NCBI RefSeq assembly: GCF_003073045.1
Contig: NC_037596.1
Coordinates: 11,591,950-11,655,949, forward strand
Origin: Pomacea canaliculata
Lineage: Eukaryota > Mollusca > Gastropoda > Architaenioglossa > Ampullariidae
Reading direction: 5' to 3'
Length of the DNA stretch: 64,000 nt
Shown piece after piece: positions 3,880 through 60,167 of this stretch. The notes beneath the pieces were generated by a model, which saw only the letters and a program-made list of their open reading frames with translations, searched no databases and was not told the origin of the DNA. Within the stretch, counting starts at the first letter, position 1, and each line of letters opens with the position of its first letter. The translations under genes were made by a program, and so were the position numbers.

Positions 3880-4125
3880 TTCTTTCACAAGTCTGTTTTG
3901 GTCTCCCAACTCTCCTCTTCCCTGTGGGTTCTAGTCAAGAGCCTGCCTGGCAATGGTGTCAGCTGGTTTGTACAGGGTGTGTCCTATCCACCCCCATTTG
4001 CGAGTTTTGATGTCTTGACTAGTGGCATTCTGCTTGGTTCTTTTCCACAGGCTGCTGTAGGAGATCTTTTCAGGCCATCTTCTTCCCAGAATATGGCGTA
4101 GGGATCGGTTGGTAAAGCCAACAAA
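3880..4125 (-). mobile_element. Non-LTR retrotransposon (LINE) fragment, left copy
   Basis: The minus strand reads RSLRHILGRRWPEKIS, then RKWGWIGHTLYKPAD and TIARQALD followed by NPQG. This is the characteristic C-terminal region of reverse transcriptases of RTE/Jockey-like LINEs common in invertebrates. An in-frame stop after QALD and the short length show it is dead. The same fragment lies at about 47715-47960 on the plus strand in the right arm, so it was inserted before the two arms separated. Confidence 0.7.
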
Positions 4126-4349
4126 TGCTAAATAATTTAATGTGCTTCCAGGTAATGAGAAAAGTTTTAAAAATGCAAACTTTAATAAGCATCGTCATCT
4201 TTCTCAAAGCGCAATACTACATTTTTGTTTAATAATTTACTTTAAATATTGATTATTGTTCTGATCACTCTTCTCTAGCTCCTGAAAACTATTTATTCGC
4301 ACTTTGAACTATTATAAGTGCCAGCGAACCGAAGCTTTCGTATTAACAG

Positions 4350-4482
4350 AGATGCAAAGAGTCAACGTTTATCTGGGGCTCAGCCGCCTGCAATGAGGAA
4401 ATCCACATCCGGTGTACAAGCCAGGGTTGCCACAAAGATGTGACAGTGTCGGAGAACAATGTGGGCTGTTGGTCTGCAATGT
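4350..4482 (+). CDS. Cysteine-rich exon of an unrecognised gene (open in the left arm)
   Basis: After a good acceptor (ttcgtattaacag) an open stretch encodes about 43 residues with five cysteines spaced C-x12-C-x8-C-x4-C-x13-C. It begins RCKESTFIWGS, continues with IRCTSQGCHKD and ends GCWSAM. It either ends at TAA (4480-4482) or splices at AAT|GTAAGA after 4480. No signal peptide or neighbouring exon was recognised, so this may be an orphan exon left by duplication. The homologous exon in the right arm (47355-47485) has a stop and a Cys-to-Ser change. I do not recognise the family. Confidence 0.35.
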
Positions 4483-6467: not shown

Positions 6468-6616
6468 GTTTGGACTTGTCGTTGGTTATTTCAGAGGAGA
6501 TTACCCTGGGATTACTTTGATGAAAAAGAGTGTAAAAACATCGCACGAATAGGAGAAAGAGACTGAATGGCCATGATAATTTGTGGGAAATCTGGAATTG
6601 CGAAAATTGCCTGCAG
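6468..6616 (+). pseudogene. Decayed copy of a carbonic-anhydrase-like exon (left arm)
   Basis: This is the inverted counterpart of the open exon at 41157-41299. Here the acceptor AG is lost (ttttcaatg in place of a cag), one A is inserted in the gtgtaaaaac stretch, and the codon TGG of the Glu-Trp-Arg region reads TAG. The remaining DYFDEKEC-like codons and the donor ctgcag|gtga are still visible. It cannot be translated through. Confidence 0.5.
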
Positions 6617-7063
6617 GTGACAGACAAAAAAAAAAAGGTTATTTTCAATTTTTCTTGCGAACACCTATTTACTGCTTTTATGTCGAATAAAATACCTAAG
6701 ACATTTACTGTAATATTAAGGCAAGGTCATAGACAATACTGTAATACCTTTTATGTACAACATTATTTAAATGGTTCATGAACTCATGTAATTTTGCTTG
6801 AAGTTCAGAATGCATTCCCACTACTTTTTTTAAATGGCTGGGTCTGGAAATATATATATATAATGTAGAGTAGCCTACACATTTCAGAACAACTGGTGTT
6901 TACAGCATTAATTAAGTAACTCACATATTCTGGATACAGCATGAGTGCATGGTTTAGAAATCAAGGTGAAATTTAGCATACATAGCATACAAACATATCT
7001 CATTAGTATTATCTTTGATAAGGAAGCAAATAAATTTATGGAAAGTTCTTTCTTAAACACGCT

Positions 7064-9993: not shown

Positions 9994-12318
9994 ATGTGCG
10001 CTCATGTCTTGTTGTTGATGCACCAAACACTTCCACTGCAAGCCTGTAAGTTATTTGTTTGTTAATCTTCAAAACTAAAGATGTAAATATACCTGACACA
10101 TCTACATATCAGCTGATGCTAACAGTTTATTTTTGTCAGCTATTAAGATTTCTTTCTTCAGCTTTTGTACTTTTTTACATGTTATATTAATTATACTAAA
10201 CTGATGATTATACTTTCATCTTTTTAAACTGACCTTGTCTATTGATGTAGATCTTTATAGCAAAAAAGGTCTGTAATGGTCAAGAGGTATTTGACTTTTA
10301 ATGGTCTTTTTTAACACCAATACTTGTATTGTGTGGTAAGCAGTCTAAAAATAGTATTCATACCATAATCGGAAACTGTGCAGATTAGAATCTTGAACGT
10401 ACTTACGTTAAAACTACGTCAGAAATTTTAGCTAATGAACTAAACATTTATTTTAGAATTTCGCTTACTTTGGAAAAGAAGCTTGCTGATCTCTAAATTA
10501 TGTTTCTGATAAAAGTTTTAATAAACAGTTTGTTTACAATGTATATTCTAGGTCCTGAACTGACTTTTCTCCATTTTAAAGAAGACTTGTCGGTTGTTGA
10601 AAATCACTTTGTCCACGTGACGTTCTGGGTGAACGTATCGACCTGTAACGAGAAGAATACTTCACACAGAATACTTGTTCACACCAGGACGAAGACCGGA
10701 AGTCTAGAGTATGACGGGACGATTATCTACTGGAGAGACTCGTGTACTGAGAGACCAGAGAAGTCAGTTCAGTGCATCAGCCCAACAGGTCCAGCAGAGC
10801 TGAATAGAACAGTGAACCGCTCTCACATGCAGATTGAGTGGGAGTTGATTTCTACACACTCTGATTCTCCTACCTTCATACGAACGAATCTGACTGTGTT
10901 GTGTATGATTCTCTTTCTGTCTGTCTTACATTTAATTCTTTTCTTTAACTACTTCTCCTTTTTCATCGCTGTCTCCTTATTTGTGCATCCATCACACACA
11001 CATGGGGACAGGGATATTTCCTTGACTCTATAATTTCTTTTTTTTCTTTGTTTAACACCTGAAATTAAATAAGTTTTAATTGTATTTCTGTTTTCGTAAG
11101 TATGTGTTTTCGTATGATTAGGGTCATTAACAAACTGGGTGTAATTTTTTTTTTTACTTACCGTACTTTTTTTTTACCGAAATTATGAAATAAAATGGTA
11201 GGTGTCACGTGTTCCATTTATAACAATATTGTTGATTTATTCTGTGTGATATCTGTTATTTTTCCAGATCCACCCAAAGTCTCAAGCTTCACTATAGATA
11301 AAAATGAGGCCAATGGCAACTATCTTATTAATGAAGGAAAAGCAGTTGACATTTCCTGCTCGTTTGACAAGGGAAACCCTCAAACTGTCTTCTTCCTGTT
11401 GGATAAAACTGGGAAAGAAATAAATACTTCTAGATCAGAAGAACAACTCACACATTCCCTGACCGTCAGATGTCAGGATGACTGGCCAATTGTTGGATGT
11501 GAAGGAGCCGGTTCAGAAAAGAACACATCAGTGACACTTCTTGCCAAGTGTAAGTAGTATAGAACTAGCCAAAACAAGATGAAATAAATGTTCAAAAGCT
11601 CAACTGTGATCAGCATTCCGTTAATGTTGATACCCATGTCGATGTTGGGATTGATAAAAAAGGCGTATGGCATCCAAATTGATGAACAATAAGTTGGGAC
11701 TACTGAGTAAGCCTTCAGTCAAATTCATTTAATTTACTGGTGTAACATTCATCTGCAATAAAAAAAATAACAGACCTACATCAATCCTCTGGAAAGAAAT
11801 CTGTACACCTTCATCAATAATTAATTCGATTCTCGGTATTAAAATTATAATTATACTTCATTTGCCTAACAGCTACATGTATGTGGCTTTTGTGCATTCT
11901 TTAACTTGTTTCCCAACTTCAGTGAATCATAATCTTTTGATGCAATGCAGCTAAAACTAAATATGACCAATATTTTAAAATGTGTTTAAGATGTTAAAGA
12001 CTTTTTTTTTTAATATTCCTGCAGGTCGTCCTCAGTTTCTTGACAGGTATCCGAGGGTTGTAGTCAGCGGAATATACGAAAACTGGGTGTTCAACATAAA
12101 GTCCCACACTACAGTCGTAGAGAAATGTCTTTTGTGGTCGTTGCCATCTGGAAACAATTTAAGCAGTAAAGTGAACTGTAACCTTTTGGGGGATCCGCCT
12201 ATCCTGCTGCTGACTGTCGCCATTTTAGGAAACGCCAGTACTAAAGAGAAAATCTGGTCCTTAGGTCTCTATGTTGAAGGAGGTTTTTCAGAGACATTAG
12301 TCTTCACCAAGCATTTAG
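9994..12318 (+). CDS. Gene C: three-Ig receptor-family gene without a visible membrane exon
   Basis: Exons 9994-10045 (signal peptide MCAHVLLLMHQTLPLQA), 10552-10902 (Ig-like 1, 351 nt), 11268-11549 (Ig-like 2, 282 nt) and 12025-12318 (Ig-like 3, 294 nt) join in phase 1 throughout, each junction after the first rebuilding a codon as T|GT or T|AT. Ig1 contains HVTFWVNVSTCNEKN, Ig2 VDISCSFDKGNPQ and RCQDDWPIVGCEG, Ig3 CNLLGDPP. Several N-glycosylation sites occur. The donor after Ig3 is GC (TTTAG|GCGAGT) where the paralogs have GT. Read-through would add about 50 residues and a (CA)n-encoded Thr/His run before a stop, giving a possible secreted form. I could not find the membrane exon, micro-exon or tail. 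It lies tail-to-tail with gene D, its closest relative. Confidence 0.75.
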
Positions 12319-12405
12319 GCGAGTATCTTCAGCACGTTAAGTATCTCTGGGTTAATAATATTTACCCACTGCTAGACAAAACAATATTCTTTAACCTCAT
12401 TGTCA

Positions 12406-17375: not shown

Positions 17376-17537
17376 TTAGTCACGTGGTGGAGGAACAATG
17401 GCACTGAAGTTGAGTGCAGCGTACTCAGTCTCCAACATGGTGCCATTGACTGTATCACTAACACTGGTGGTTGTAAAGTCCAGGTCTCCGTAAATCAACC
17501 CATCTGAACGTTTATGGCGGCATATAGACGAAGCCTC
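17376..17537 (-). CDS. Gene D terminal exon with ITIM and ITSM
   Basis: The exon follows the acceptor cttataacag and is read in phase 0 to a TAA stop at 17376-17378. It encodes 53 residues. SDGLIYGDLDF contains LxYxxL, the ITIM consensus. 23 residues after the first tyrosine comes TEYAALNF, an ITSM-type TxYxxL. The protein ends SAIVPPPRD. The corresponding exon of gene B (53797-54006) keeps both motifs and the VPPPR end while the linker between them differs, which points to selection on the motifs. Known ITIM/ITSM receptors recruit SH2-domain phosphatases. That role here is inference. Confidence 0.85.
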   Translation of the reverse strand, partial: EASSICRHKRSDGLIYGDLDFTTTSVSDTVNGTMLETEYAALNFSAIVPPPRD

Positions 17538-18634
17538 CTGTTATAAGTGTGATAAAATCAGATAATAACTATCAGTGTTTCTCAACGCTTGTAAATAAAC
17601 AAGTTGAAAATTTGCTTACATTCTGCTTTACTTGTCTTGGTATTGTTTGTGATCATCAAATATAAAAATCAGTCAACTTTCTTGTTAAGGCATAGTTAGT
17701 CCACATGTTTCAAATATTAGACAGTCACAAACTCATATTACAAATATTTTAAATTAGATGGTTTTAGTTAGAAGTATAAGAATCCATTGGCTTTGATTTT
17801 TCAGTGTGTTCTATGTGCTATCAATCCATTTCGACAGAGATTATTCAGATGACATTGTTTTGATATTCGCTCATACGAGTATGCAATGGAAACGAAACTA
17901 TCTAATGAAGTTTAGTCAAACATTATCACTTTGGTGCTCATTAGAAAGATAATTAAACACGTCTGTTCAATTTAGTCACCACACAATGTGCTGGTCATTA
18001 GTGTAGAGCGAACCATTAAAATATTACTTGTTAAATGCGAACGGAAATGAAGTCAGTCTTATCAAGAAAAGCACGCAGAACAAAGAAAATACAGATCATA
18101 CGATTAATGTGAGTCTGTTCTAGCCTCAAACGTGTACTATGCATAAAAATAATAAACAAGAATATAAATTGTCAAAGAGTTAATGTGCTGCCAAGGAAAC
18201 AAACTGCTAGTTTCAACCACTCGTAAAATATTGTCTTTCTTTGTTTCACTTTTAGTTAAATATTGCAACCATAAATAAGTTAACGATATTTTAATGGTTG
18301 ACAGAGTTACTTAAGTAGTCATATCTACGTTTCGGTTTTATTTTCAGACAGGGTGATGTCAAAATATCCTTGTACTACAATTTCAGGGTGACCTATCCGA
18401 TGCACAGTAGACTGGATTAAATATTAAGCAAAACGCTATTAGTGACTGTGTAACACCTTCTGAAACAAGCTTAAGGTTTACCATTATCTCTGCTGATGCA
18501 CCAACATTTGCGACTTCAGCAACATCAGTCTTCAGACCTGTAAAAAATTCGAAAATAATGCATCGTCTATCATCATTCATTATCCTACTAAGTACAGAAT
18601 CTAACTAGTGGAGGTTATTGCTGCTTCGGGTGCT

Positions 18635-18666
<32 letters not shown>

Positions 18667-21600
18667 AGTTGCTATCTGATATTTCTTACATAACAGTCCA
18701 TCGCGTTTTTCCCGACTGACACTTTTCAGTTTTTCATACTTTAAGTAAAGTTAGCATTATGATATATGTTTTTTCTTTCAACGAATTTAAGAACATGCAT
18801 TCTTCTTTTTTGTAAACATGTGGACCTATCGAGAGAAAATTTCAATTTCAGTTAACTATTACAATAGTCATTAAAGAAGATAAAAGTGATGTTAAAGAAG
18901 TTTTTCATTTACAGCAGTTACAGTCAGCGTATGTTTCTAGGATGCAAGTTAAATATTTCGTATAATATTTTCTTCTTTTTGAATTTGTGTTAGAGAGACG
19001 TGCGAGTTACTTTGTCCACAGTCTCTCTGGATAAAGAAAAAGAATGAGAATAACTTTTATTGTGGAAGACACGATGTGCTTTTGTGCTAAAAATGGAATT
19101 TATTTTAAGTGGGATTACCTTTCTGCACCTTTCTGTCTCACTGGGAAGGTTATAATCACTATGTCTCACCTTGTTGTTGGCGCATTTTTTCTTGGACAAC
19201 CATGGAGGTATAATCATTTTCGGTTGCTTCTGTTGAAGAGTTTCCTGAGAAATTAAGTACTAATGTATGAATGTTAAAGGTTCTTCAAGATGTGTGCACT
19301 AATTTGTCTTTAAAACCTCTTTATGATCTTCAAACGCTAGCACATTTGTTTTAAAAATATTATGACAAAAATACTATGCTCTTTTTTTTGTAGACATTTT
19401 GTTCTCCATTTATTTATTAACGCAATTCAGTTAAACATTGTATTATATTAGCTAAGGGTATTCACTTTTTACTAAAGTGCCTTTCTTTAAAATACGTTTT
19501 ATGTACTATTCACTTATTTGAGTTCTTTTACTTCCAATTATCCAAAGGTGCAATTTATTGTAAAAAAAAACAGTAATAACACACGTGCAATACACTACGG
19601 GTTAGTTGTTACAAAAGACCATGCACACTTGGAGTTCAATGCTCAAAACGAAGTTTCATTTTTTTCTCTGATTTTGGAAGGAAAAATTAGCTGCACATGT
19701 CAACACTTGAATACTACGTACCATAACTGTCAGGGCAACAGTCACCACCAAACCGGCATAAATCTTTCCGAAACATACCTGCTCCTACCGCAAAATTTTC
19801 GCACCCGAACTAAATACAGAGGTGGTCGCCCAACCCTGATTCACGACAATTCTGCAACGATGTACAAACCCCTCTAGGTCCCAGCAGGCAGAAAAATAAG
19901 TATACGTCAATTTGGTCAGTTAAAAAAAGATGTTATTGGGGAACCATATTATTTCCACCTGATGTGACAGACAGGGTGATTGGCAACTAGCCATCAACTT
20001 TTTCGTGCCGCCGGGATTGTCCGCTGGACATCTCTGCGTTTCCGGAGAAGACAATTAGTCTACCGCGAATGACAGATTCCCCAACTTTGCACGCAAGGCC
20101 TGTAAAAGTTTCTTTTTAGAAGAACCAGAAACCTTACTACACTCTTCCCACACGCGACACCCTGTACTCGACAACGATAAAAAAAAAGGGGGGGGGAAGA
20201 AAAGGTCATAATATAAAAGAAAGACGGAAGAAGTATGTGAAAGAATTACAGGAAGGAACAACCACATCAATAAATACCTATGCTATTACAGTTTAAGAAG
20301 TATGGGAGCCACTTACGTGTAAAAATTTCCCGCACATTTTCTGTTGAAACTCTGCTCTCATCTCTATCCCTGTAAAGACGTGATTTGTTTACAATGAGGA
20401 AGTTTCTGTGTTCATGATCTTCAAACCATAAAATAGATTCTTATTTTGACTGAAGAAACCTAGAAATCCTTTTCTTTTTCATAAGAAATGACACTTTTAT
20501 CTATTACCCTTTTAACACTTATCACATTAGAGTAGATAGCAAACAACACTAATGTAAAGCTTGATTCGAGCGTATTTACGGTCTATTGTTGTCTTTTTTA
20601 TCTTTAAGTGACAGTATTGTGTACCCTCTTTTTTGCTTAGGGTTTCTTTTGCTGAACAAGGTCTGTGTTGGTATAATGGCAACTTGTATAGATGCACGTT
20701 TTAGTACAAATGCAATTGCAGTCTCTATAAATTGATTATATTTACTGATTAATACTGATAAAATGCAATTCTACATCAAAACTTTTGTCGATGCATACAT
20801 GAGATAGCTATCATCAGGGACTACGTGTCTTTTAATACGTTAATATAACAACATATAAAAATAATTTAAAAGAAATACTGTAAAAAGCCTATAAAAGGAT
20901 ACTCACCTGATCCCTCTGCCTAGTACAAAAGAAACAGAGAACTTTATGTAAAAATAAACGACAAAGATTTTATTTAAAAAGACATTATACAAAGTTCCTT
21001 TCATATTTTCACAAGTTCACAAGTACTGTGGACAAAACGATTTGATTTTTCCTGCAACAAATAAAGAACAAATAATGGAGCTTTGCAATTTAATGTCAAT
21101 AATTTTGTTGAAATAACCACGGCAAAATATAATTACTAAGAAATTTAACTATTTATTTAAATAACTTACTGTCAGCCTGTTTCCTCATCCTCTTTATGGC
21201 AACAAGAACAACAACAATTGTTGCAGTGAAGACAATGACACCCAACAAAATAATAACCACAAATTCAGGACCAAGGGTTTCTTCTGAACTGGACAACGAA
21301 TTTTCTGTAACTGTAACTGTTGAAATCAGTTTGTTTAATCTTCCAAATTCTTATCTTTTATCTGACCGTTATTTTATCTGACCTTTTTTAAATCCCAGTT
21401 AAACATTACACCACAATTATTTTCCTACATATAAAGTACGAGAATGTCAAATATGCTAAAATCTAGTTACATAGTTTTTTTCCAGATATTTAGCAAACAT
21501 GAAAATTCAATGCGCAGTATGTCACCAGTCGCTAACTACATGTCAAATGCTCTTAAAAATCTTTTAAAATATTAGCAATTTAAATGACTTGTTCATCTGT

Positions 21601-24106
21601 TAATAACGGACTAGTAATATTTATTAAAAGGCATAAAATATAACATTTTTATTAATATGTCATGCTTTAACCTTTACTATTTTCATTTATATGAAATATT
21701 AGTATGCAATTAGCTTACCCAGAAACATGTAACACATCTATACTCACCTGAGGGTAACGAGAAAATAATGTTTCTGAAAGTCCTCCTTCAATACTGATAT
21801 TTAACGACCAATTTCCACCTGTGATGCTGTCGTTTAAAATTACAACCGTCAAATTCAGGTTAGGTGGATCTCCAGTCAGGGTACAGTTCACTTCTTTTCT
21901 CCAGTTTTCTCCAGATGACAAAGACACTAGTATACATTTATCTACAACAGTGGTGTAGGCTTTTATGTTAAACTCCCATCGTTGGTATATTCCAGGGTGG
22001 AGATTGGGAGACTTTTTGATAAACTGAGGCTTACCTACAAAAAAGTTAAACAAAACATAGATGGAGTTTTCATAGTGTCAGATTCGTTTTGAATTTGTTT
22101 TAATTTGAACGGCTTTTGCCTGGTAACGAATAGTTTTTTTTCAAAACATATTTTCATATCTAAAGTGATTGTTGAAATTTTTGAAAGTGTTCTTTTTATC
22201 TGTTTACATATGTAGACTCAGTTAACTTTTGCGACTGAAATATGCAGCCATTACATCTGGGAGGCAATGAATAATCTAAGACAATAGAAAGGATCTTATG
22301 TTATTACTGTGTGGATGTCACTATAAGTTTGAAATAGTAGAATTACCTTTAAATAGCTTCCCATGTAGAATTGATTAGTTGTGTTTTGAGGAGACTATTT
22401 TATCGGTATGTTTACATGTTAACAACATTGGTGATGGGATCAACAGTTAAACTAGAGAGTATCCTGATTCACTAGTATTTGGAAGATGTAGGTTAGGTAA
22501 AAATGTGTAGAATAACCAAGAGCTTGGAATACAAACTTTTTTAAAGTGATTGACAATGCTTAATGCTCGGAGTACAAACTTCATTAACCCAGAATAAAAT
22601 TAACAGAGACAGCGGTGGTAGGGGGAGTAAGGGACGTGAATGATTCAGAACCCTCCATGGTCAAAGTAAACACTAATCACTTCCAATTTGGTTACTTACA
22701 TCTGACAAGAAAGGTGACAGATTTGTTCATTGTCGAGCCCAATCCTTCACACTGGATGATGGGCCAGTCGTCTTGACACTGAGCATTAAGTGAATGGTTA
22801 AGATGTTGTTCTCCTCTTGAGGCGTTTATTTCTTTTCCAGCTTTATCTACAAGGATGAATTTGGTGGGAGGGTTTCCTTCATCGAATAAGCAGGAGATGT
22901 CGACCTCTTCACCTTCATTAATGACATGAGTATGATGGACCTCTCTTCTATTCACAGTCAGACTTGTAACCTTTGGTGGATCTGTAATATAAAAATACTT
23001 GGATAGAATACAGGACCAACAATGTGTGCTCGTCTGTTACGTTAGCACATGTAGAGAGTAGCGGAGGCAAATATAAATTACAAGAGATGAAGTTTTGTAA
23101 TATGACGTGCGTGTGTTGTATGGGAGTGACTGGGCAGAGCAGTGGAGAACGAGCTGGAGAGAACGTAAGAGTGCGAGAGAGAGATAGGGGGTGGTTGTGG
23201 GAAGGGGGTACTTGATATACTTACACAACACAGTAAGGTTCATTAGTACAAACGAAGAGTGACCAGACTGTGCAAAAGTCAACTCCCACTCAATCTGCAC
23301 GTGAGAGCGGTTCACTGTTCTGTTCAGCTCTGCTGGACCTGTTGGGCTGATGCACTGAACTGACTTCCCTTGTCTCTCAGTACACGTGTCTTTCCAGTAG
23401 GTAATCGTCCCGTCATACTCTAGACTTCCGGTTTTTGTCCTGGTGCGAACAATTATTTTGTGGGATGTATTCTTCTCGTTACATGTCGACACGTTCACCC
23501 AGAAAGTCACATTAACGAATTGATTTTCAACAACTGATAGGTCCTCTTCCTTAAAGTCATGAAATGTTAGTTCAGTACCTACAACATAAATTGCAAATTA
23601 AACTTTGTTAATAAATCGAATAAAAAGCAGATCTCTAAAACAGTTTCAATTTACGAGTTTTCAATCACAAAAGACACATGCTATTAATTAGCTGTATATT
23701 TTTTTTTAAATGTAAAGATGTTGTTAGAGTGTTTCCACGTTCTGGATGTTTGATGTTTAACTATCCATGCATCTAACACCCAACAACTTAGAAAAGACTA
23801 CATTCGCTATGAGGAATATCTGGGTATATTATAAGAAAATCAAAGAAAAAATCTGAAATTAACACTTCAGCGTAATTTCTACAAGCTAAAGTAATAGAGC
23901 TGACAAACGTAGAAAAATGTTATAACTAAAAACAAGAAAGATTTTTAGCATTAGCTGGTATACAAACATGTCGGATTATTCATATCGTCTATTAAAGACC
24001 AAAAATAAAGTGAAGTCAGCTTACAGGCTTCCTGTGAAAGTGTTTGGTGTACGAGCAAGACATAAGCAACATATGCAGCAGTTGAAGCTGAAAACATTTT
24101 GTGCAT
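17376..24106 (-). CDS. Gene D: three-Ig transmembrane receptor with ITIM/ITSM tail
   Basis: Exons in transcription order: signal peptide 24106-24025 (MHKMFSASTAAYVAY, then VLLVHQTLSQEA), Ig-like 1 23578-23225, Ig-like 2 22981-22700, Ig-like 3 22034-21748, membrane 21304-21170, micro-exon 20919-20907 (13 nt), 20369-20317 (53 nt), 18537-18482 (56 nt) and ITIM/ITSM exon 17537-17376. The membrane segment is FVVIILLGVIVFTATIVVVL followed by IKRMRK. Phases agree at every junction except Ig3 to membrane: the Ig3 exon is 287 nt, not a phase-preserving length, and ends in phase 0 (CCTCAG|GTGAGT) while the next exon needs phase 1. A one-base deletion, sequence error or unseen exon could explain this. 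An alternative last exon may exist at 20161-20055. Protein ligands are unknown. Confidence 0.75.
18482..18537 (-). CDS. Gene D 56-nt linker exon before the ITIM exon
   Basis: Acceptor ttttttacag, donor ATAATG|gtaaac. It reads GLKTDVAEVANVGASAEIM with phase 1 to 0. The gene B exon 54309-54373 ends with the same EEIM/AEIM codons and donor context, which confirms both. Confidence 0.75.
18636..18665. repeat. Poly(T) tract
   Basis: About 30 T in a row inside a gene D intron. It could be the tail of a small retroelement on the minus strand, but no body is recognisable. Confidence 0.9.
20055..20161 (-). CDS. Possible alternative terminal exon of gene D
   Basis: The acceptor tcgagtacag is followed by 107 nt that are open in phase 1, matching the phase left by the 53-nt exon 20317-20369. 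It would add RCRVWEECSKVSGSSKKK and end LSFAVD. It sits where gene B has its alternative short tail exon but shares no sequence with it. Support is only splice signal and phase. Confidence 0.35.
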
Positions 24107-48800: not shown

Positions 48801-50735
48801 ACAAATCTTGATTTAGTTACAAGAAGGATTTATTAAAATATTGCAGGGCATTAATACTTCAAAATGTCAACTTGAGCAGAAATAATTCGAACAAAAACAC
48901 ACATCCCTTTTAGTACATATTTTTTTTAATAGTTTGGTCACCCTTCCCACCGCACAACATCAGTTCCTCTATTTTCATCATGTACTTTCCAAAGGTACCT
49001 CACCTTTCACAATCTTGTTTAACCATGAATCCGTGTGTGACACTGAGATTTTAATTAAAAAATAGAAGTTTTAGCAATTCCACGTTTATTGTCATAAATA
49101 ATAAAATGCAAAGGCGGGTACGAGGGTAAAGAACGCTGTGATAAGAAAGTAAACTGAATTTTTTTCGTATGCGATTTCACTCAGCAAGCTTATGAATTTT
49201 AGAGGTTGATGAGCAGAGGTGAATTTTTTTCCGCAAAAGGGAACATTTAGGTTAAGGGGATCAGTGGCTTAAACAATGATATCTCATATGTTAGGACAGG
49301 GGAAGTGATACTGAACACATACGAGTACATGACGGAACAGATAAGCATGTTGCTCGTCGGCCTAAGTTAAAATATTCTGGAGATTTATTTTGACCCTCAC
49401 CCCAAGCTAGGGTGGACTGCCTCTTATTATCATTATTAATGTATCTTTTGTTTTTTTGGATTTTACACCTTTCAAAAGTGTTACCACGGTGTAAAAAAAT
49501 TACAGCTTGACCAATCAGAGCAGGCTCAGTTTTAGTTTGATAATTTTGTACGGCCCTCGCAATATGTTATTAATATCAAAATGTCTACATGTTTCCCTAA
49601 TGCGTGACATAAGTGTTTAACTTTGACCGTTGATCTGTGAACTTCTGCAAACTGAAGTGTAAACGGATACATAAGAACATAAGAACGCCGGAAAAAGACT
49701 TTATTGAATACGTAGTACAACATTACTTTGTATTAAAAACAGAACCATATTTGTTAATGATTTTGTTGAGGAAAATTTAGAAATGAATAAGCAGACAGAC
49801 TCATTAGTGTCTGGCAAAGTCCACACCACTTACAAGTAACTTTAAAACTCCATTTTGTAACAAACACTTGCTTTATTCAGACCCAACACTCTTTAAACCC
49901 ATTTTACAGAAATTGCAACAGGTTTCACGCAAAAGTAGAAATAACATGCCTTGTTCAAATTAAATGAGCATGTTATTTCCTTTGGTACGACTGTCCTCGA
50001 TATAAAGTGCTTCACAGAATTATGAACCTACGTGAGTAATGTTGTCCTTCCTCCTTTACTTTCATATCACAGTAAGTAAAAGGCGTAAACCTATAAGCCA
50101 GGATGAAGTTAAAGTGTGGATGTGTGGTGCTAACAAAAGCGGCTAAGATCTTGACATTTATATAACGTTCTATTAACTTTCTGTTATGTACATTTAAGAG
50201 TTTCGTCTGAAATTATGCTCTTTCCCCATATTAAACACAAGCAAAGTTAACATATTTACAGTAATTTCAACAGTGATCAGGCATATACAATTAATCCACC
50301 ATAAAATCAGGGATAGCAATAATTTACATAAGTAAAGATAAGCCGCAGACGATTACTAACAGTTTGATAGTACAGTATGTACAAAGACAGCAGTGGTAAT
50401 ACTGGTCTTATTGATATCCTCTAGTCCTATCTCCGATCCTTCCTTTAAGCCCAAACAAGCTGAAGAATTAATTAAGATAATGGACTTTACCTCACTGAAC
50501 CGTTGTACTGACAAATAGTTTGGAAGGTTTCTTTATTTAGCAGCAGGGAAAGGAAAGCCAAATTTTCTAATTCATCCTTGTGGGGAGAGGTTAAAGATGA
50601 GTCAATACCGTTTCCTTTCTTTTCAATAATGTCTGCTGTTCCAAATTTTGCAGCACACTCATCCTCTAATGGTTTTCACACCACTCAAGTTGAAGGGAAG
50701 AGGAATTTATCATCGTACTTAATTTTTGACATAAG
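48801..50735. other. Right-arm-specific spacer, no gene seen
   Basis: AT-rich sequence between the inverted-repeat block and the LTR. I see no exon or repeat I can support. Confidence 0.4.
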
Positions 50736-51447
50736 TGTGGTGTCGCGTTCCACCCCCCAGCCTCGCCAGAAGCACGCGCACAGCCGCTCACACAGCCGGC
50801 CAGACACGCACAGACACTCGGCCGGAGACAGTCTACGACTACCTCTCGAAACCCGTGCACGGCACAAACCACGACAAAGACGGGAAAAACGATACAAGCA
50901 CGCTGTTTACTGACAAGTATAAACACGCATACACATACACCCACACACACACACAGAAAAAACAGATCAAAAAATACCCCACGAGCACCCGTCAAATAAT
51001 ACAAAAACAACAGGGACTAACCTCCCCGCCAAGAGGTTACAAATAAACACAAATACAGCAGAAAAAATACAAAGAGCACTGCGACACAGCACAGTCAAAG
51101 TCTGCTCAAGTGTTCAAAGAATCAGCGGAAACACCAGTCTTCTTCTACTCAGCTGGCCCCCTCCCTCCTCGCGTCAGGTACGAGAGGTGGGTAGGCCGTG
51201 GTCCGTGAACCCCTGCTCACCGGTCCTAACCCTGGCTGCTCCACCTAAAGCTGGCACACACCCGCGCAGCGAGGTCACGTGTTCACACGCCGATGAGATG
51301 ACGTGGGTACAGGGTGGCTGGTTGACACAATGGCGGATGAGACGTCAACGACGAAGAACACATAGAGTATGTCGAATACGAGGAAGATGCGAAATACGAA
51401 GACGTTGCAAAATATGACGAACATGTAGAACAGATAAAAGCCTGTAG

Positions 51448-51491
<44 letters not shown>

Positions 51492-52424
51492 AGTTCCTCC
51501 AATAAACAGGCAGCTCTTCCACAACTGCACAGTTTCTAAACACATATTCTAGCACACGTATAAGCATGTGACCGTTACAGCGCCGGTCCTAAAGCATACA
51601 AATCCATTTAATAAAACACGGGTGCGCGCCACATGCGCTGCGACCCGGCCAATACAAAAGCCATTCTAACCAGACACAAGTCTTACACTCCAAAAAAAAA
51701 ATAAAAAACAATCGTGAACATAGTCATTAACATATAAAGATATAACATATAAAGATCAACCCATTCACACTCCAATCCCCAACTAAGGGCCCCATAGACT
51801 GGAAACGTGTAGAACTCAAAGAAAATAGACTCTACTAACCCAAATCGGCTTGTGATGGTACCCGACGGTCAGCCCTCCACAACGGGAATGGTAGAAACTC
51901 TCCCGTGGAAATCCGCGGACACTTTCCAAGGGAAACTCAAACGACCTGGGTAACACGGCGCAGCCCACACTGCCCAAATGGCCTGGCCTCCCGCCGTCCT
52001 TTCAGGCACAACACGCTCCTCTCTCCATCGAGCCCAGGTCAGAACTGCCACGAGGGACGCTGCTCTCTGGGGTTCACTTCCTGTCGCCCAGGGGCTGTGA
52101 CCAATCGTCAGCGCCCACGACACCCAGCCCATGCCAAGGCGCGTGAACGCTTTTCACGCCAAAACCTTGGACAGGGAAGGGAGGGGCCCGACCAGTGCAC
52201 CCCCAGAGCTCCCACCGGCAGCACACAGCACTCAAGCCGACGTCACGTGACGTAGCCAGAGCGTGACGTAAGACACGGCTACGGTCAGAGGGTGAAGGCC
52301 TTGACCTTTCCCCTGCACACCGTACAAAAAACAGCCGTCAACCCTCGTCTGCTGTGAGCTGCCTTACTGAACAGGAGCGTCCCCAGGCGCTGACAGAAAG
52401 GCCCAAATCGTGACACGCGACACA
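50736..52424 (-). mobile_element. Long terminal repeat of a Ty3-type retrotransposon
   Basis: On the minus strand the sequence begins TGTGTCGCG immediately after a polypurine tract (CTTTAGGGGGGGGA) and ends near CGCGACACCACA, giving matching TG...CA termini over about 1.69 kb. It is much more GC-rich than its surroundings. A 35-base poly(A) run interrupts it at about 51449-51490. Confidence 0.7.
51449..51490. repeat. Poly(A) tract within the LTR
   Basis: About 42 A directly after CCTGTAG. It may be the tail of a nested retroposed sequence. Confidence 0.85.
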
Positions 52425-52674
52425 TCCCCCCCCTAAAGACAAAGCAACGCGGAGTTTAAAACCCATCGCGTGTCAAGATTACAGAAGAGCAACAGTCAAA
52501 ACAGTCAAAAATTACAGTCAAAACACCATACTAAACCCCAAAACACGGGAACGACTGCGTAGGCTAAGGCACAACCCTAAAGAAACTCGACAAGAGAAAT
52601 ATAAACATCGCTAACCTACATAACTGACATCTTCATCCTTCTACTGTTGAAGGCAACCGGCCGCCTAAAAGGTA

Positions 52675-52795
52675 TCAGGCGGGGAGAGAGACCTGCTTAA
52701 GAAGTCAGCCTCTACATTATCCTCTCCCGCGATGGCTTTTATCCTCATGGGATACGCCAGGAGCTGCATCGCCCATCTAGCTAGCCCAGCACTAC
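52675..52795 (-). mobile_element. RNase H end of a Ty3-type pol gene
   Basis: The minus strand encodes LARWAMQLLAYPMRIKAIAG then EDNVEADFLSRSLPA and a stop. The RW...Y...G-x-(D/E)-N-x-x-AD-x-LSR pattern is the hallmark of Ty3/gypsy RNase H. Upstream the frame is broken by a stop, so only this end survives. The stop is only about 250 bases before the polypurine tract, with no integrase between. Confidence 0.75.
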
Positions 52796-52799
52796 GTCA

Positions 52800-53796
52800 A
52801 AACTCAGAATTCCCCCTTGAAAAGAAGAAAAAGTCGAAGCCGAGTGCATAACGAGAACCAATCTGAATGCACGACGGCGAGGCCTCTACAGTCTCACAAT
52901 ACACCAATCACCTACGCGACATCTAAAGAGAAACTGTCCGCAGAACCTAGCGAAACGGTGACAGAGAATTGAAAAAAAACTGTTAAACATTACGCCTACT
53001 TTCTAAGAAATCACGATTGTTTTTCCTTGGAATCCCTTCAATTATCTTATTTAACACTATTTGTATATTGCAATCGATGCATAATTGACTAATCTGAAAA
53101 AGTAATATTAGGATTCCATAACGCCAAATAGGTCTTTAAGAATTGTTTGTGTAGTTTGAGGTTTACTCCGTAGTCACTAATATCTACAATATTATACAAT
53201 CTCTTTAATATGAAGACTGATTTTATACAGCTAGCTTTCCTTGAGAAACACAAGTGATCTAAGTATAACCATAGAGGCAGTAGAATGTTTTCTGAGAGAA
53301 AATTCACGAAAAAATAAAGCCAGAAATTAATCTGCTTATAAAGAAGCTAAAATTAAACAATTTTCTTCATAATCATAAGAATAAATGTCCACATATGTAT
53401 AAAAAGCACACATTTTACAATATACTACAACAATTCATGGCGCACACATGTGAGAACTTCTGAACAAAGGCACAAGGATACTTCAACCCCAAAATAGACA
53501 AGCTCCATACCTAGGGCTATTTAGTCCTAAAAGGAAGGACAATTTTATGTGACAGAGACTAAACGAGAAGGATCTGTTAAAGAGAGTTGTTTATAAGTTA
53601 AAGACAAATGATTTAGTTAACAAGGGATCGTATATTTTTCTACATAGTTACTCAAACTCTTTAAGCACTGTGAAAGTACTTTTTTGTACATTAAATCCAT
53701 TTTTTAAGTTTGCGTTAACACTTAACACTGCCGTATAGAAGCTTTAACATTTTCTAAACCTGTTGGATCAATGTAGTTAACTTACTGTTTCCAAAT
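52800..53796. other. Stretch between pol fragment and gene B 3' end
   Basis: AT-rich, nothing recognised. A donor-like ACA|GTAAGT lies shortly after the ITIM exon stop, so the 3' UTR of gene B may continue in a further exon here. Confidence 0.35.
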
Positions 53797-54006
53797 TCAG
53801 TTTCGATAATCTCTTTTGCCCTTTTTATCTATCTTCTGTCTGTAATTACGTGGTGGGGGGACCATGGCGGTGAAGTTGATGGCGGCGTACTCTGTTTCTG
53901 ACACAGACTCATTGGCGACGTTATTAAACGTTGTTTTGTTCGAGAAGTCGAGGTCTCCATATACTAATCCATCTGAATTCTTCACCCCAGAAGTGGGCTC
54001 TGCCAC
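53797..54006 (-). CDS. Gene B terminal exon with ITIM and ITSM
   Basis: Acceptor ttgttacag, phase 0, 69 residues and TGA. SDGLVYGDLDF gives LxYxxL (ITIM). SETEYAAINFTAM gives TxYxxI (ITSM) with the tyrosines 24 residues apart (about Tyr501 and Tyr525 of the long isoform). MVPPPR follows, as in gene D, and then a longer basic end (RQKIDKKGKRDYRN). The motif pair resembles the tail of vertebrate PD-1 (VDYGEL and TEYATI). Confidence 0.88.
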   Translation of the reverse strand: MAEPTSGVKNSDGLVYGDLDFSNKTTFNNVANESVSETEYAAINFTAMVPPPRNYRQKIDKKGKRDYRN

Positions 54007-57000
54007 CTGTAACAATAAAATAAATCAACTTTGTATTTGCTTAGTTTGCTGTTTGGCAGAACATGACTATAGAACCAGGCTGAAAGAAAGAAAGGTGTAG
54101 AAGGTGACGAATTAAAGTGAAGCATTTACGACACAAAAAAAATAGATAATTATCTGTTACATATATATATAAGCCGTCGTTATTAAGGCGGAATAACATA
54201 CTAATGTACGTCTAAAAGTAAGTCTTTGCAGAAATTCAAGCTGGGATGAACTAAGTTCTGCTAAAGACCTCTCTAGTTCATTGGACGTGAATTAGGCGCA
54301 AGGATTACCATTATTTCTTCTGAGGAGGAGACATCAGCATCGTCAGCATCGTCAGCATCACAAGCGACATCATCTACGAAAGAATCCAAATCAGCTTTTA
54401 GAGCACACCTCCCCCTCGTAACCGAATGCAAAAGTAGAAATTAGGTTTAACATGCAAAAGCTTGTTCAGTCATAAATGGGGTTAACTGAGAACTTAAGAC
54501 ATCTTTATTTAGATGTTGTCCTCTAAACATATTTCCTGTTTATTTCAAAAATAATATTGACTAAAAATGAATAAAACGGAAATACAAATTTAATATTTTT
54601 GTTTATATAATTAGCAATAAGCAGTGGTGTGACTAGGACTAATATAATAATCTCCCTGTGCCATTATTATATTTGCTATGATCGAAATCAGTGTGACTTT
54701 TATGGTCAGATGAATCACACTCTTTGATGACTGTATCAAGTGATGTAGTTATTTCCTTAAATCCACTTGAATTTGTGTCTAATTCAAGAGAGAGAGAGAG
54801 ACTGTGTGAGAGTGGGAGAAGGAGATAGAAAGAATGTATACATAAGGGAAAATACAACGAATAAATAAATAACTAAAATAATTAAATATGCTCTGATAAA
54901 AATTGGACAGAAATAATCATAACTGAAAATAGAATGTAAAATTATGCTAGATGATAACTTTATCAAAGTTTTTTTATACCTAGCTTTTCTTGACGTTTTT
55001 TCGCTCGAACTTCGGTCGCAGAAGTATAAGTTTCTTCAACTGGTCCTGAAGAAGATTCACCTGGAGCACAAAATCTGTTATTGGTCTTATTTTTCACGTG
55101 TAAAAGAAATTGATAAAACTCGTTGGTGCTTGTTTGTGTGTTATTTCTTTCTCCTGTTTATCTTTTGTTTCGATTTTTTAGACTGATTTTCTGTTTATTT
55201 TTTATGATTCCTTTTCTTAGTTCGCTGTTATTAAAGGGAATGCGATCTGATGTGTAATATCTAAAGAACAAATAAATGGATTTTTAGACTGCTTAATTGC
55301 TAGATTTGTTTACTTAATAACTAGTAGAGTTAGCATTATCCTTATTTTTATTTTTTTTTTAATTATTTTTCCTTGATCATGGTATTTATATTCTCCAACC
55401 ACTATTTATTATATGAAACTATTTAACGACAACTTACCTTTACTTCGCCCTTTCTTTTGGTTACGAACAGATGAGGCTGACACGTACGTGTGATTATGTA
55501 GATGACTGTCAGCTATTTAAAAAATAATAACCACGGCAGGACACAATTTTAACAAGAATTTTATTCCGTTAATTTACGTGCTAGAAATGCGAGTAAGATC
55601 TGACGCAGGAAATCGGTCACATGGTTTGTACTGACACCTTGTTCAGAGTAGAAAGTACTTCTAAAGTTCACTAAAAAGAAGCAAGTATTAGCTAGTATTG
55701 GTAGTAATACCGGCGATCATGTTATATCATGATGCAAAATCTTAAGCAGGGGCTCGAGCTCACGAGTCTTCAACGCCCAAAGAATACTGACGGTTTTCAG
55801 AACTTGGTTAAAATGGATTTTTAAACTAATTTCCTGCAACAGCAATTTTTAAAAAAACCCAAAGAAATCGATGCAAAAAATACAATAAATATCAAACAAA
55901 CGAACAAAACTTAACAAAGTGACCAAACACGTTCTTGATTTTGAAATCACTTACTTGAAATGTCTTCTGTAAAGCTGCCTCTTAAATCAGAACTTTTTTC
56001 TTCAAGGCTAGAATTTCACACAAAATAAAACATTATTTTCTCGTAACCCAAGGAAACAAAAAGAAATAAGTAGAATACTCTTTCGGTTTCTTCAATCAGC
56101 TTCTGACACGAAACAATTTTATTTTTGTTAAGAAGCTTCTTTCTTTTCATATTAAAATACAAAAATTAAATTTATGTTGTGAGAAAGTTAAAATCCTAAA
56201 ACTCAATGTCATTTATTAAGGAGCATACTACAAACTCGATTGAATGCAACATCCTTAAAGCTGACGAGTGTATTTCATTTTAACTAAGTTACTTATGTTT
56301 ATGTCATTTACTTGGTGATACAGCAAACAACTCTTACCAACTTTATCTAAATGAATCAAAGTTGAATATAAAACTATATAATCATTATGTGCTTGAAAAA
56401 TGTAATATATTATGTTAAGATAGGAGAGAAAGAGTTTATAAAATGTTGATTTGGTTTTATAGACAAAAATACGCAAAAAATATAAAAAAACTGATAGAAC
56501 TAATGTCACATAAAACTACACATACCTTGTTGTATTGCCTGAAAAAAGACAGAAATGACAAAATTTACTTCCTATGTGTACACTTTCACTATACACAAAT
56601 ATATAAATGAGTGAAAGTGTTTCTTATTTTTCAAAGTTTCTATTTCTCTTCATGCATGTATTACATCATAGATAGAAATATTTATAATGTGTAATCCATT
56701 TAGTACTTTTACAAGTAAACATTACCTTTTACAATGCCACTAAGGCCTGTAGAACCAAAGAAAATCCAGTTTGCAAGAGTTTACTTTTTCACATAACACA
56801 ACAAAGGTACAAAATCAAATTTATTAAAATGTTTATACTTTAATTTTAAGATCTTACCATTATTTTCCTTTCTCTTTTTCCTTACCACAAGAGCAGCAAC
56901 AATGACTAAAGCGATGATAATAACAATCAGCAGAACGGAGAAGGTAAAAATTAATGGACCCATCTTGCCATTCTTGTCTGTAAACAACGGGTCTTTTTCT

Positions 57001-60000
57001 GTGCCATCTTCTGTAAACAGATGAAGATCTTTTCGAGGAAAACAATTTCATGTAATAAAGACCCCCTTTTTAAAGGAAAATAACACATTCTGTAGTAAGT
57101 CTTTCATTGGAGCGTAGCAGAGCTAATGCAAATGTCCAACCTTTTAGGGCAGTTAATTATATGTAAAAGCTAAAAAAAACGCAGTACGCCATTTTTTATA
57201 TTCTGTTCTGTATGCTTTCTATACTTGTTATAGTCTCTACTTATGTCGCTCCTTTAGTAGGCAAATATTTATCTCTAAGGATATTGTATTTTTTACAGTA
57301 TTTGGACTGCCTCCTTACATATTTAGAGCAATATAGCAGGCTGTAAACTAAGTAAGAATATATATCAGGTTTCCATGCTCGAGTTTTAGTTTCTATTCAT
57401 CGGCCACAGAGTCTGTCTCTTGTTTACATTCACATTTGTAAATAAATAACAGTTGTTTAATATACTCACCTATATTTTTATTAAGGATTATTGTTATGTT
57501 GGCAGAGCCTCCTTCATTTTGATAGGTTAGTATCCACTCTTTGATGCTGCGGTTCTCGTTGGCAAAGGGAAAGCTTAGGTCAAGATCAGGTGGCTCACCT
57601 CTTATGTTGCAAGTCACCTGTCTTTGAGTGTTGTGGAGTAAAGACAATGGTGTCAAGACACATTTACCTGTGGCTGATGAGTAAGACTTTACGTTTAGTG
57701 TTATAGTTTGTTCATCCGAAGAACTGTCAATTTTCACAGTGCTGTTAACAAACTGAGGAGGACCTGTTACAATCAAAAAGTACAAGAATAACCTGTTGAT
57801 GTAAATTGTTCCCCTTACATTTTATGCTTACACTTTAAACTATCCGTTTTTGAATGAAAAAATAAAACCAAACACTAGCAGCACGTGCTGACTAAAGAAT
57901 CAAAAACTACATGAGTGTATATTTCTTAATGTGAATTTTACAGGAATGTTGTGGGATAAAAAGAGTTTAACGTGATTTCTAGACGACCCTCTAGATTAAA
58001 TATTATCATATTTGTATCCAAGGAGAAAAAAAAGCGTGGATGATGAGCTTGTCAGTTATTAGATACTTTTAAGTATTTTACGTATTAGAAAATGTACACG
58101 ATTGTCTGAAAACCGAACGCACAAACATTAAAATATATCTTGAGTCACACACGATTGAAAAAAACCACATAAATAATATTGAAATTAGTAATACTCACAC
58201 TTGACAAGAAAAGACACAGATCGATTTTGTTTTGACCTCTTTCCTTCACAACTGATTATTGGCCAGTCATCCTCACAATGTACAGTAAGTGACTGGTCGA
58301 TGTATTCTTCTGTATAAGAAGTTGCCATTTTAACCCTCTTTTGGTCCAGCAAGTGAAAACGTGATGTAGGATTCCCTTTTTCGAACGAGCAGAAAACGTT
58401 GACCTTCTGTCCATCATTCAACAGGTAAGTACCACTTGCCTCATGTCCATCTACAGTCAGACTTTCGACGCTGGGTGGATCTGATTGCACGCACATAAAC
58501 ACACGCGAACGTAATCTTTTATCTTCTTTAAAAACTTACTACACATGCTATAAGTCGGCGAAAGAAGATACTTTTAAATAACTACTGGATGTTACAAATT
58601 CAAATGGACGTCTGGCAAAGAAGGTACTATGCTTGAATAAACTAGTAGGTGTTATTTTCAATATTAGAGGGAGAAAGATGCATCGGTAAGTTGGGCAGCT
58701 TATTTAACTAGTACTGTTGTGGTAATAAAGAAATTTTGTTTTAAAAATGATTTATGTCTAGAGAATTAAGAATTTTTCACTATTACACTTCAACGTTTTC
58801 TTATGGAAGAAAAATGTACTCAATGAAAATATAGCAGGAAAAAATAATCCGAACACATGAAAGTGTACTTCGGTAACATTATATGACTTAAACGTCTTAG
58901 CATCTATGCTCAGCTCTTTCTTTTTCTCTCCTCTCTCGTGGTCTTTAGTGCTTTTGGATTATTATCTTAGTTTATAGCATCACAGCTGCTAATTAGGTAA
59001 ACAAACATAATACAATTTTATGTACGTTTTTTCAGTAGTTTTGCTTGGTCAGATGCTTTTAGACCTATGTTTTCCCTTTAATGGAAATATATGCTTGTAA
59101 TGTCATTATTTTTTAAAGTACACTTCTTAAGAAAAAGGATTAATACTGTCTGTTTTGTTTACAAATATAGTTTGTACAATAATAAACTTACAGGAAACGT
59201 TAAGTTTTAGTATTTTTTTCAATGTATAGAATTTCCTTGAATCTTTATTTTGCCACGTCCATGTCCATTCAATTTCCACATGTGATCGGTTTACTTTCTT
59301 GTAGAAGACTGCAGGACCCGCCTGGCTGAGGCAGCCAACAGATCTCGGTAAGACGGCAGCACACTGGCCATTTCGCTGAGCAATTTGTCCTTCATGTTCT
59401 TGTGTATTCTTGTCTGTCTTGGTGTTTACCTCAATTCGATATTTTACATCAGACTGCTTACAGACTGATGTGTTAAGCCAAAACGTCAGATTAACATTAC
59501 TGTTTTCGGAAACTTCAAAAGTGTCTCCGTTAAAGTTGTAAAATTCTAGAAATGTACCTGCAAAAAGGTTAGAAAAATTGTAAGCACAAAAAGTTTAAAA
59601 ACACTTCCAATCTACATTATAATATGTTTAAAAAATCTACTTTAAGCTAAAATGTTTAGTGGATGTTGTCAAATATTTTCCACTGTTCGTGTTTATGCCG
59701 TTTCACTCTTTGTATAATAATTCACCAATACATACAACACAGACGTTAAGCTTTTTATACAGAAAGAAATTTATCCAGAAAGACATGCATTACGAAACCT
59801 ATGTATATAGATTGTGGTAATGTTTGAGATGTTTGTTTTGTTTTGGCCTATTCTTTACAAATTTGTGTAAGATTAACATACTTTTTTCTGATGGTGTTAA
59901 TTTTAAAGTGATTTTTGACCAGACTGAGCACAGTTGTCTTTAAAATTCCAAACTTTACACGAGTTTTATAAGAAGTAATGTGAGGTATTTTCAAAACAAG

Positions 60001-60167
60001 AACATGCCAGCACAAAACTGAAAATCTAAGAATTGCTTTTGTCTTTATTTCATTTTTGTATTCGAGTTTTAAAATGTAGGTTTACACTACTTACAATTCT
60101 GTGATAATGCAGTCTCGTGTAACATGAGCAATACATAGATGTATTTCACTAGCAAACTATCTTCCAT
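53797..60167 (-). CDS. Gene B: complete three-Ig transmembrane receptor with two possible tails
   Basis: Exons: 60167-60095 (signal peptide MEDSLLVKYIYVLLMLHETA), 59557-59192 (Ig-like 1), 58480-58199 (Ig-like 2), 57763-57470 (Ig-like 3), 57010-56858 (stalk and membrane, residues about 358-381), 56538-56526 (13-nt micro-exon), 56007-55955, 55512-55438 and 55060-54980. Then comes either 54778-54639 (short tail, 509 residues in all) or 54373-54309 plus 54006-53797 (ITIM/ITSM tail, 554 residues). All GT-AG introns and all phases agree for both ends. Ig2 has NVFCSFEKGNPTSRF and CEDDWPIISCEG; Ig3 has CNIRGEPPDLDLSF. Many N-glycosylation sites suggest a heavily glycosylated surface protein. The function is probably an inhibitory immune or recognition receptor. 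That role is inference, since no ligand domain is recognised. Confidence 0.85.
54309..54373 (-). CDS. Gene B acidic linker exon
   Basis: 65 nt, phase 1 to 0, acceptor ttctttcgtag, donor ATAATG|gtaatc. It reads DDVACDADDADDADVSSSEE then IM. The repeated GATGCTGAC codons show a small in-frame expansion. It bridges the 81-nt exon and the ITIM exon in frame. Confidence 0.75.
54639..54778 (-). CDS. Gene B alternative short-tail terminal exon
   Basis: The same exon as 2678-2817 of gene A: DTNSSGFKEITTSLDTVIKE, then a Ser/Asp/His-rich end GRLLY and a stop. Phase 1 entry from the 81-nt exon. Use of this exon skips the ITIM/ITSM exons. Confidence 0.75.

Follow-up and report, generated by a model that had tools for sequence, protein, structure and literature searches.

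Do Ig receptors of the apple snail Pomacea canaliculata carry an inhibitory tail of the kind known from PD-1? The question is raised by two exons in a 64,000-nt stretch of its genome (C7:11591950-11655949; hereafter the window, to which positions refer unless a contig or Mb coordinate is given). The window lies on C7, a contig of 30.9 Mb in a 440-Mb assembly of 24 contigs. An earlier note had proposed that both exons are terminal and encode two motifs, an ITIM and after it one of ITSM type, whose tyrosines are 24 and 23 residues apart, respectively, and both were present as claimed:

53797-54006, minus strand: terminal cytoplasmic exon T1, with ITIM LVYGDL, ITSM TEYAAI, VPPPR and a stop
17376-17537, minus strand: paralogous terminal exon T2, with ITIM LIYGDL and second motif TEYAAL

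T1 (minus strand, frame 0, 54006-53797) reads VAEPTSGVKNSDGLVYGDLDFSNKTTFNNVANESVSETEYAAINFTAMVPPPRNYRQKIDKKGKRDYRN and T2 (minus strand, frame 0, 17537-17376) reads EASSICRHKRSDGLIYGDLDFTTTSVSDTVNGTMLETEYAALNFSAIVPPPRD, each up to a stop codon, and both begin after a phase-0 3' splice site (AG). T1 has the claimed fit to both consensus motifs; TEYAAL of T2 matches the wide form T-x-Y-x-x-[V/I/L] but not the strict ITSM form, TxYxx[V/I] (PMC8631942; papers are cited by PMC number and, throughout, from excerpts). The strict form occurred in 25 and the wide form in 27 of the 33 family tails that were read with their flanks. An ITIM with an ITSM 20-30 residues further on arose 52, 17 and 60 times per 100,000 composition-preserving shuffles of three family tails, respectively. 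Because the pair is this rare in shuffles and recurs in 28 of 37 tail-like places in the genome, a chance origin was ruled out. The tails have the arrangement of an inhibitory Ig-superfamily receptor, namely a cytoplasmic [SILV]xYxx[ILV] and a TxYxx[VI(L)] motif about 20-30 residues apart. The observation was correct: both are terminal cytoplasmic exons of receptor genes encoding at least one Ig domain.

T1 closes the gene LOC112568076, which runs from 60167 to 53797 and encodes a signal peptide, three ectodomain modules, a transmembrane (TM) segment and a series of cytoplasmic exons. Its features are as follows:

60095-60167, minus strand: signal-peptide exon MEDSLLVKYIYVLLMLHETALSQN, judged by reading of the sequence
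59192-59557, minus strand: ectodomain module 1, from the splice model
58199-58480, minus strand: ectodomain module 2, from the splice model, Ig-like by family profile
57470-57763, minus strand: ectodomain module 3, from the splice model
56858-57028, minus strand: TM exon; the 3' splice site lies a few codons further in in the annotated model
55953-56012, minus strand: cytoplasmic exon C0a, ends approximate, absent from our 8-exon model
55427-55510, minus strand: cytoplasmic exon C0b, with tyrosine module TYVSASSV, ends approximate, absent from our 8-exon model
54980-55045, minus strand: cytoplasmic exon C1, with tyrosine module TYTSATEV; the annotated start lies a few codons further upstream
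54309-54373, minus strand: cytoplasmic exon C3, acidic, ending in SSSEEIM, phase 1 to 0, present in P0002
41085-41300, minus strand: alternative last exon of LOC112568076 isoform X2, without ITIM or ITSM, placed by mapping P0001 onto the window

Our splice model comprised eight exons with canonical sites, consistent phases and a single open frame of 508 residues, and the public P. canaliculata protein models agreed with it while adding C0a and C0b. Hydropathy and reading of the sequence indicated a single-pass type I membrane protein with a signal peptide. T1 is both kept and omitted among models of this gene: P0001 (isoform X2) skips it and ends at 41300-41085 without the motifs, whereas P0002 (C0Q70_12348) contains it with different last residues and leaves out module 2. 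T1 is also present in the paralog model P0003. All 16 family proteins that we found are named from P. canaliculata and lie on one contig; by reading, the full tail is present in four of them (P0002, P0003, P0008 and P0015).

A separate tyrosine module, approximately [TN]Y[VTI]S[AV]xxV, occurs one per exon at 55489-55451, 55031-54980 and 19244-19170 (all minus strand). The main gene and P0015 have two copies each, and the module lay near only four of the 34 tail loci scanned (L061, L062, L013 and L049). Upstream of the main gene, 63999-61097 (minus strand) contains a partial receptor copy whose likeness to the TM exon stops mid-helix at 61098.

T2 is the last exon of a paralog at 23.6-17.4 kb, whose exons follow the order of the main gene:

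23225-23578, minus strand: ectodomain module 1
22700-22981, minus strand: ectodomain module 2, Ig-like
21748-22034, minus strand: ectodomain module 3, ending in phase 0, out of step with the TM exon, which expects phase 1
21170-21316, minus strand: TM exon, start uncertain between neighbouring AG sites
19170-19244, minus strand: cytoplasmic exon with NDYTSMV
18482-18537, minus strand: exon C3, ending in SAEIM, phase 1 to 0

Unlike this paralog, the related P0008 gene has a module 3 that ends in phase 1. The 17.4-kb paralog may be a pseudogene, contain an assembly error or be spliced differently, and none of the 16 family proteins is a model of it. A near copy of T2 lies at 11.855 Mb (L043).

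Part of the locus is duplicated in a neighbouring gene without the tail:

427-4393, plus strand: 3' part of LOC112568521, with TM exon 427-600, cytoplasmic exons at approximately 1433-2471 and last exon 4349-4393
48804-54404, no strand assigned: 5.6-kb segment with C3 and T1, absent from LOC112568521 (junction at approximately 3042-3044)

Positions 1-3044 are an inverted match of 57454-54405 (90.8% identity), and 3042-5736 match 48803-46103 (95.7%). Neither a T1-like nor an ITIM-ITSM exon was found in the LOC112568521 stretch by tail searches of the window and the genome, and a run of N at approximately 6.9-7.2 kb lies past that stretch. In P0004 (LOC112568521 isoform X2) the TM helix is skipped as well. 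Since the close paralog LOC112568520 has T1 (L062; P0003), loss of the tail in LOC112568521 would be the simpler reading. The comparison of 1-7063 with 57454-40707 also revealed that the inverted duplication is large, falling into three blocks of 89-96% identity broken by two interruptions and containing the 3' half of a receptor gene and sequence beyond it.

The family extends far outside the window. A genome search with P0008, in which 86 of 396 candidates were scored so that its counts are lower bounds, gave at least 93 matches, all on C7, 76 of which were module-2 exons by a rule on coordinates. A DNA pattern for C[EKQ]DDWP hit 60 sites, 59 on C7 and one on C3 (reversed control, 0). Twelve of the 59 were new, giving at least 88 module-2 (Ig module) exons on C7, a count of exons that includes matches with stops and not of working genes. 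With E up to 10, two tail queries returned 35 and 34 matches, corresponding to at least 37 tail-like places, all on C7, and every one of the 37 was read. Both motifs were intact in 28 of the 37, or 27 without L090. Among the tails read with flanks, all 33 had the ITIM and 31 had a second tyrosine 22-24 residues away (23 in 28 tails, 24 in two and 22 in one).

An intact pair was missing from nine places. L058 has an ITIM-type second motif and hence two ITIMs; in L048, L049 and L054 the second tyrosine is kept but the consensus around it is not matched; L082 and L084 have no second tyrosine; and L087-L089, read as short pieces, are broken tails. L090, also a short piece (E 1.78), has LFYTEL and TNYAAI, 24 apart by counting, and may be an unrelated Ig gene. 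Loss of the tyrosines in homologs, named in the earlier note as what would speak against its proposal, was thus confined to a minority: among paralogs within P. canaliculata, where conservation was measured, both tyrosines were kept in 31 of the 33 flanked tails, and three of the four weak extra places were broken. L058 (C7:22.305 Mb; LIYADL and VNYETI, 23 apart, 1.5-kb flanks read) and L090 (C7:26.281 Mb; both tyrosines present) lie far from the cluster on the same contig and are possibly ancestral or unrelated Ig genes.

The 33 tails were distributed over 11.2-12.61 Mb (17), 14.8-15.7 Mb (13) and elsewhere (3), and the module-2 exons over 11.2-12.61 Mb (39), 12.61-13.3 Mb (32) and 17.1-18.5 Mb (17). 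The two tail queries (E up to 10) found no tail in the 12.61-13.3-Mb and 17.1-18.5-Mb blocks, and the P0008 search and C[EKQ]DDWP pattern placed no module-2 exon in the 14.8-15.7-Mb tail block. The L086 gene, which lies before L047 and is the only gene read in that block, has all three modules and, by reading, a TM exon; its modules are just 23-46% identical to those of the 16 proteins, and this divergence is why its module-2 exon was not tallied. Protein searches limited to word-sharing candidates (best 7994 in the profile search) returned no relative outside P. canaliculata. Of 28 candidates in a tail-only protein search, just the query and P0002 came back; P0008 and P0015 went undetected despite having the same tail, and the lack of hits from other species therefore says little.

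Because motif-bearing queries were used to find the tails, and the alignment was fixed on an ITIM pattern matched by all 33, the conservation figures lean upward. In the 31 tails with both tyrosines, Leu was invariant at -2 and at +3 of the ITIM (31/31 each) and Gly stood at pY+1 in 28; the second motif had Thr at -2 in 28 and Ile or Leu at +3 in 30. Mean entropy at the -2 and +3 positions of the ITIM and ITSM was 0.29 bits, compared with 1.74 bits elsewhere (P 0.00018 against random columns). The earlier note had suggested comparing dN/dS between motifs and linker, and the motifs proved to be under stronger constraint (0.15 versus 0.41; upstream 0.30, downstream 1.28) over 25 of 465 pairs with pS below 0.4, which are not independent. 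In the same 25 pairs, pS was equal in motifs (0.190) and linker (0.195). For 15 disjoint pairs, two of them distant, the nonsynonymous proportions were 0.056 in the motif and 0.108 in the linker (Fisher P 0.005, rounded counts).

The ectodomain is looser than the motifs. Pooled dN/dS was 0.46, 0.25 and 0.55 for modules 1, 2 and 3, from seven pairs each with pS below 0.45 (out of 21, 36 and 21), mostly close relatives of P0008. A value above 1 was seen in two of the 21 module pairs used (L004/L006, module 1, 1.23; main gene and upstream copy, module 3, 1.08), and no pervasive positive selection was found overall in these seven pairs per module. The term fast-evolving, which had been applied to the ectodomain, is apt in the sense of divergence, its modules being 23-46% identical to those of one far paralog, whereas pervasive positive selection is not shown.

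The description of the ectodomain as Ig is supported for the middle module only. A module-2 profile of eight paralogs matched SYG-2 best among solved structures (E 7.9e-4), with weak matches to MAG (E 0.2), DSCAM and pIgR, placing at least one Ig domain outside the membrane. Pfam Ig models matched up to five of 14 family members (best, Ig_C17orf99 at 4.9e-7), but none matched the main gene's own protein. Profiles of modules 1 and 3 gave no convincing Ig match among solved structures, module 3 reaching CD4 at E 0.2 amid armadillo noise; no Ig model matched module 1 in a comparison, by sequence models, with the Siglec-type N-terminal V-set. The tail profile returned histone noise only.

A phosphatase that could read such a tail is encoded in the same species. 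We found one SHP2-like gene, located at C2:35.208-35.219 Mb, whose exons run in the order SH2-SH2-PTP, the SH2 exons (35208145-35213304) being 71-77% and the PTP exons (35214630-35218696) 59-79% identical to a human SHP2 query. Both SH2 domains retain the phosphate-binding arginine (FLARPS and YLVRES). The remaining seven of 11 SH2 matches were 34-55% identical, and the top-scoring PTP match was another locus, on C5, with 36% identity. Three of these seven SH2 matches, 39-43% identical to the N-SH2 of SHP2, lie within 5 kb at C13:17768196-17772986.

The ITSM of PD-1 is TEYATI, and TEYA[ADT]I is common in the snail tails, which share the order ITIM then ITSM with PD-1 and BTLA. The spacing that the earlier note had called close to that of PD-1 is indeed so, at 24 in T1, 23 in T2 and 22-24 across the tails, compared with 25 in PD-1 (Y223 and Y248; PMC7078208). 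Most snail tails have YG[DE]L where PD-1 has the ITIM core YGEL (PMC8631942). In the comparison excerpted from that paper, the PD-1 ITIM (VDYGEL) is apparently the sole one with Gly at pY+1, a residue reported there to disfavour SHP1. Human PD-1 and most snail tails share this Gly, which would likely reflect convergence on SHP2. The snail linker is unrelated to that of PD-1 by eye, and the snail family is large and clustered. PD-1 orthology was not supported: the snail receptors have three modules in place of a single V-set, and PD-1 was absent from the solved-structure matches of the whole-protein, module and tail profiles, all of which compare sequence only. The likeness to PD-1 originally proposed thus holds for residues and appears to extend to similar docking logic; kinship is not supported, with three modules and no PD-1 or V-set sequence match.

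SIRP-alpha, the CD33-related Siglecs and PECAM-1 have paired motifs about 23-24 residues apart and multi-Ig ectodomains, with tail-less paralogs in some of these families, and SIRP-alpha and Siglec tails resemble the snail tail about equally in spacing. Solved-structure searches gave no homology to these proteins beyond the weak match of the Ig module to MAG. Among invertebrates, the fester co-receptors (FcoR) of the tunicate Botryllus are membrane Ig receptors with ITIMs, 53 loci of which occupy one locus; they combine an Ig, a sushi and two C2 Ig domains and carry hemITAMs, and splicing swaps signalling motifs in some loci (PMC12065747). By description, they resemble the snail family as an invertebrate multigene family of ITIM Ig receptors; no sushi domain was found among 25 of the 30 Pfam families listed for 14 snail members. 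The Alr allorecognition genes of the cnidarian Hydractinia have ITIM/ITAM motifs (cited in PMC12065747) and are alike by description. ITIM-bearing Ig receptor clusters have already been reported in Botryllus and Hydractinia, and the snail family adds a molluscan variant.

Oyster CgSiglec-1 has two I-set domains and is titled inhibitory in its cited paper (PMC5877582), and CgIgIT2 combines five Ig domains with a TM segment and an ITAM (PMC11999971); both are molluscan Ig immune proteins but single bivalve genes, and the excerpts report no ITIM in either. The PTC2/GRC loci of the gastropod Biomphalaria likewise cluster divergent genes for single-pass membrane proteins and show multi-kilobase indels and a link to parasite resistance, but are described without known domains besides the TM segment (PMC7494358); the words tyrosine and cytoplasmic are absent from the excerpted text. 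Among open-licence papers on ITIM/ITSM receptors of Pomacea or molluscs we found none on the snail family, and the apple-snail immunity review PMC9178244 mentions neither ITIM nor IgSF.

The tail most likely recruits SHP2 and inhibits, and we consider it probable that these are inhibitory receptors following the logic of PD-1, BTLA, SIRP-alpha and the Siglecs. It is the tail of a type I membrane receptor, one member of a large gene family in the apple snail. Engagement of the receptor would lead a Src-type kinase to phosphorylate both motif tyrosines, ITIM and ITSM. Lying mostly 23 residues apart, the two phosphotyrosines would then bind the tandem SH2 domains of the snail SHP2; docking would open the phosphatase, and nearby activating receptors would be dephosphorylated. 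Tail-less paralogs and isoforms, with their related ectodomains, would serve as partners that are soluble or do not inhibit. The sequence itself establishes the exons and gene models, how large and how linked the family is, the constraint on the motif residues and the presence of the SHP2-like gene, whereas we infer that the tail is phosphorylated, binds SHP2 and inhibits, what the tail-less forms do and that immune cells use the receptors. Two observations run against so simple a picture, namely the omission of T1 from isoform X2 and the upstream frame mismatch of the 17.4-kb paralog.

The same exons could be read in other ways. Inhibition through SHP2 might operate in adhesion, neural or gamete recognition and not in haemocyte immunity, as the best match of the Ig module, the neural adhesion protein SYG-2, would allow; we regard this as unlikely, though deserving of attention, since the large cluster, the gain and loss of tails and the tail-less isoforms resemble, by analogy, recognition families. 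YGDL and YAAI both fit the YxxPhi consensus, and YxxL/I can serve as a sorting signal, so that the motifs might set receptor turnover by endocytosis and sorting instead of docking SH2 domains. YxxPhi, however, demands neither a residue at -2 nor a fixed distance, and the Leu and Thr at -2 and the narrow spacing (22-24 in 31 of 33 tails) exceed what it needs, making this explanation improbable. We give equally little credence to the tail as a switch that binds other SH2 proteins (SAP-like adaptors, PI3K or Grb2) and activates always or in some cells: the upstream tyrosine modules TY[VT]SAxEV of some members would suit it, and the ITSM of some vertebrate receptors binds SH2D1A/B (PMC8631942), but the ITIM is conserved at least as well as the second motif and the spacing of the pair suits a tandem-SH2 phosphatase.

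Recent copying or homogenisation by gene conversion might by itself account for the likeness of the motifs, and five disjoint tail pairs are indeed separated by no more than 1-3 substitutions over the codons compared. The equal pS of motif and linker argues against conversion as the cause, given that their nonsynonymous divergence is unequal, and the far member L086 keeps the tail despite its divergent ectodomain modules. As the sole cause, recent copying or conversion is very unlikely.

Returning to inhibitory receptors of the PD-1 type, clustered receptors with such tails and a matching phosphatase gene make brake-like signalling testable in a snail. If the reading is true, molluscs arrived separately at the docking tail for tandem-SH2 phosphatases that vertebrate immune checkpoints have, and put it to use across a large cluster of receptors; the family would then offer a protostome test case for the evolution of inhibitory and tail-less receptor pairs. 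The finding of one SHP2-like gene, and not SHP1 plus SHP2, would permit a clean test of the Gly after the ITIM tyrosine in PD-1-like tails. Pomacea is invasive and a parasite host, which may give its recognition receptors practical relevance. More tentatively, and with considerable doubt, a protostome may have independently built a chromosome-scale receptor complex (at least 88 Ig-module exons and at least 37 tail-like places) sharing a convergent PD-1-grade SHP2-docking tail that includes the Gly at pY+1. Its inhibitory, tail-less and probably soluble members would diversify by tail loss and alternative last exons, as a molluscan counterpart of the leukocyte/NK receptor complex directed against parasites or used for self-recognition.

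Some further sequences in the window deserve mention. A third receptor at 10551-12320 (plus strand) has modules 1-3 that are 78%, 60% and 54% identical to those of the 23.6-17.4-kb gene; GC stands directly after its module 3 where GT is expected, and no TM or tail exon was recognised downstream as far as 16.5 kb. An open stretch with a good phase-1 3' splice site, ending in GTGRLLY and a stop, is common to both duplicates (54778-54639, minus strand; 2678-2817, plus strand) and is possibly another motif-free alternative last exon. A 127-aa open frame at 62478-62095 (minus strand) looks, by eye, like a fragment of a non-LTR retroelement.
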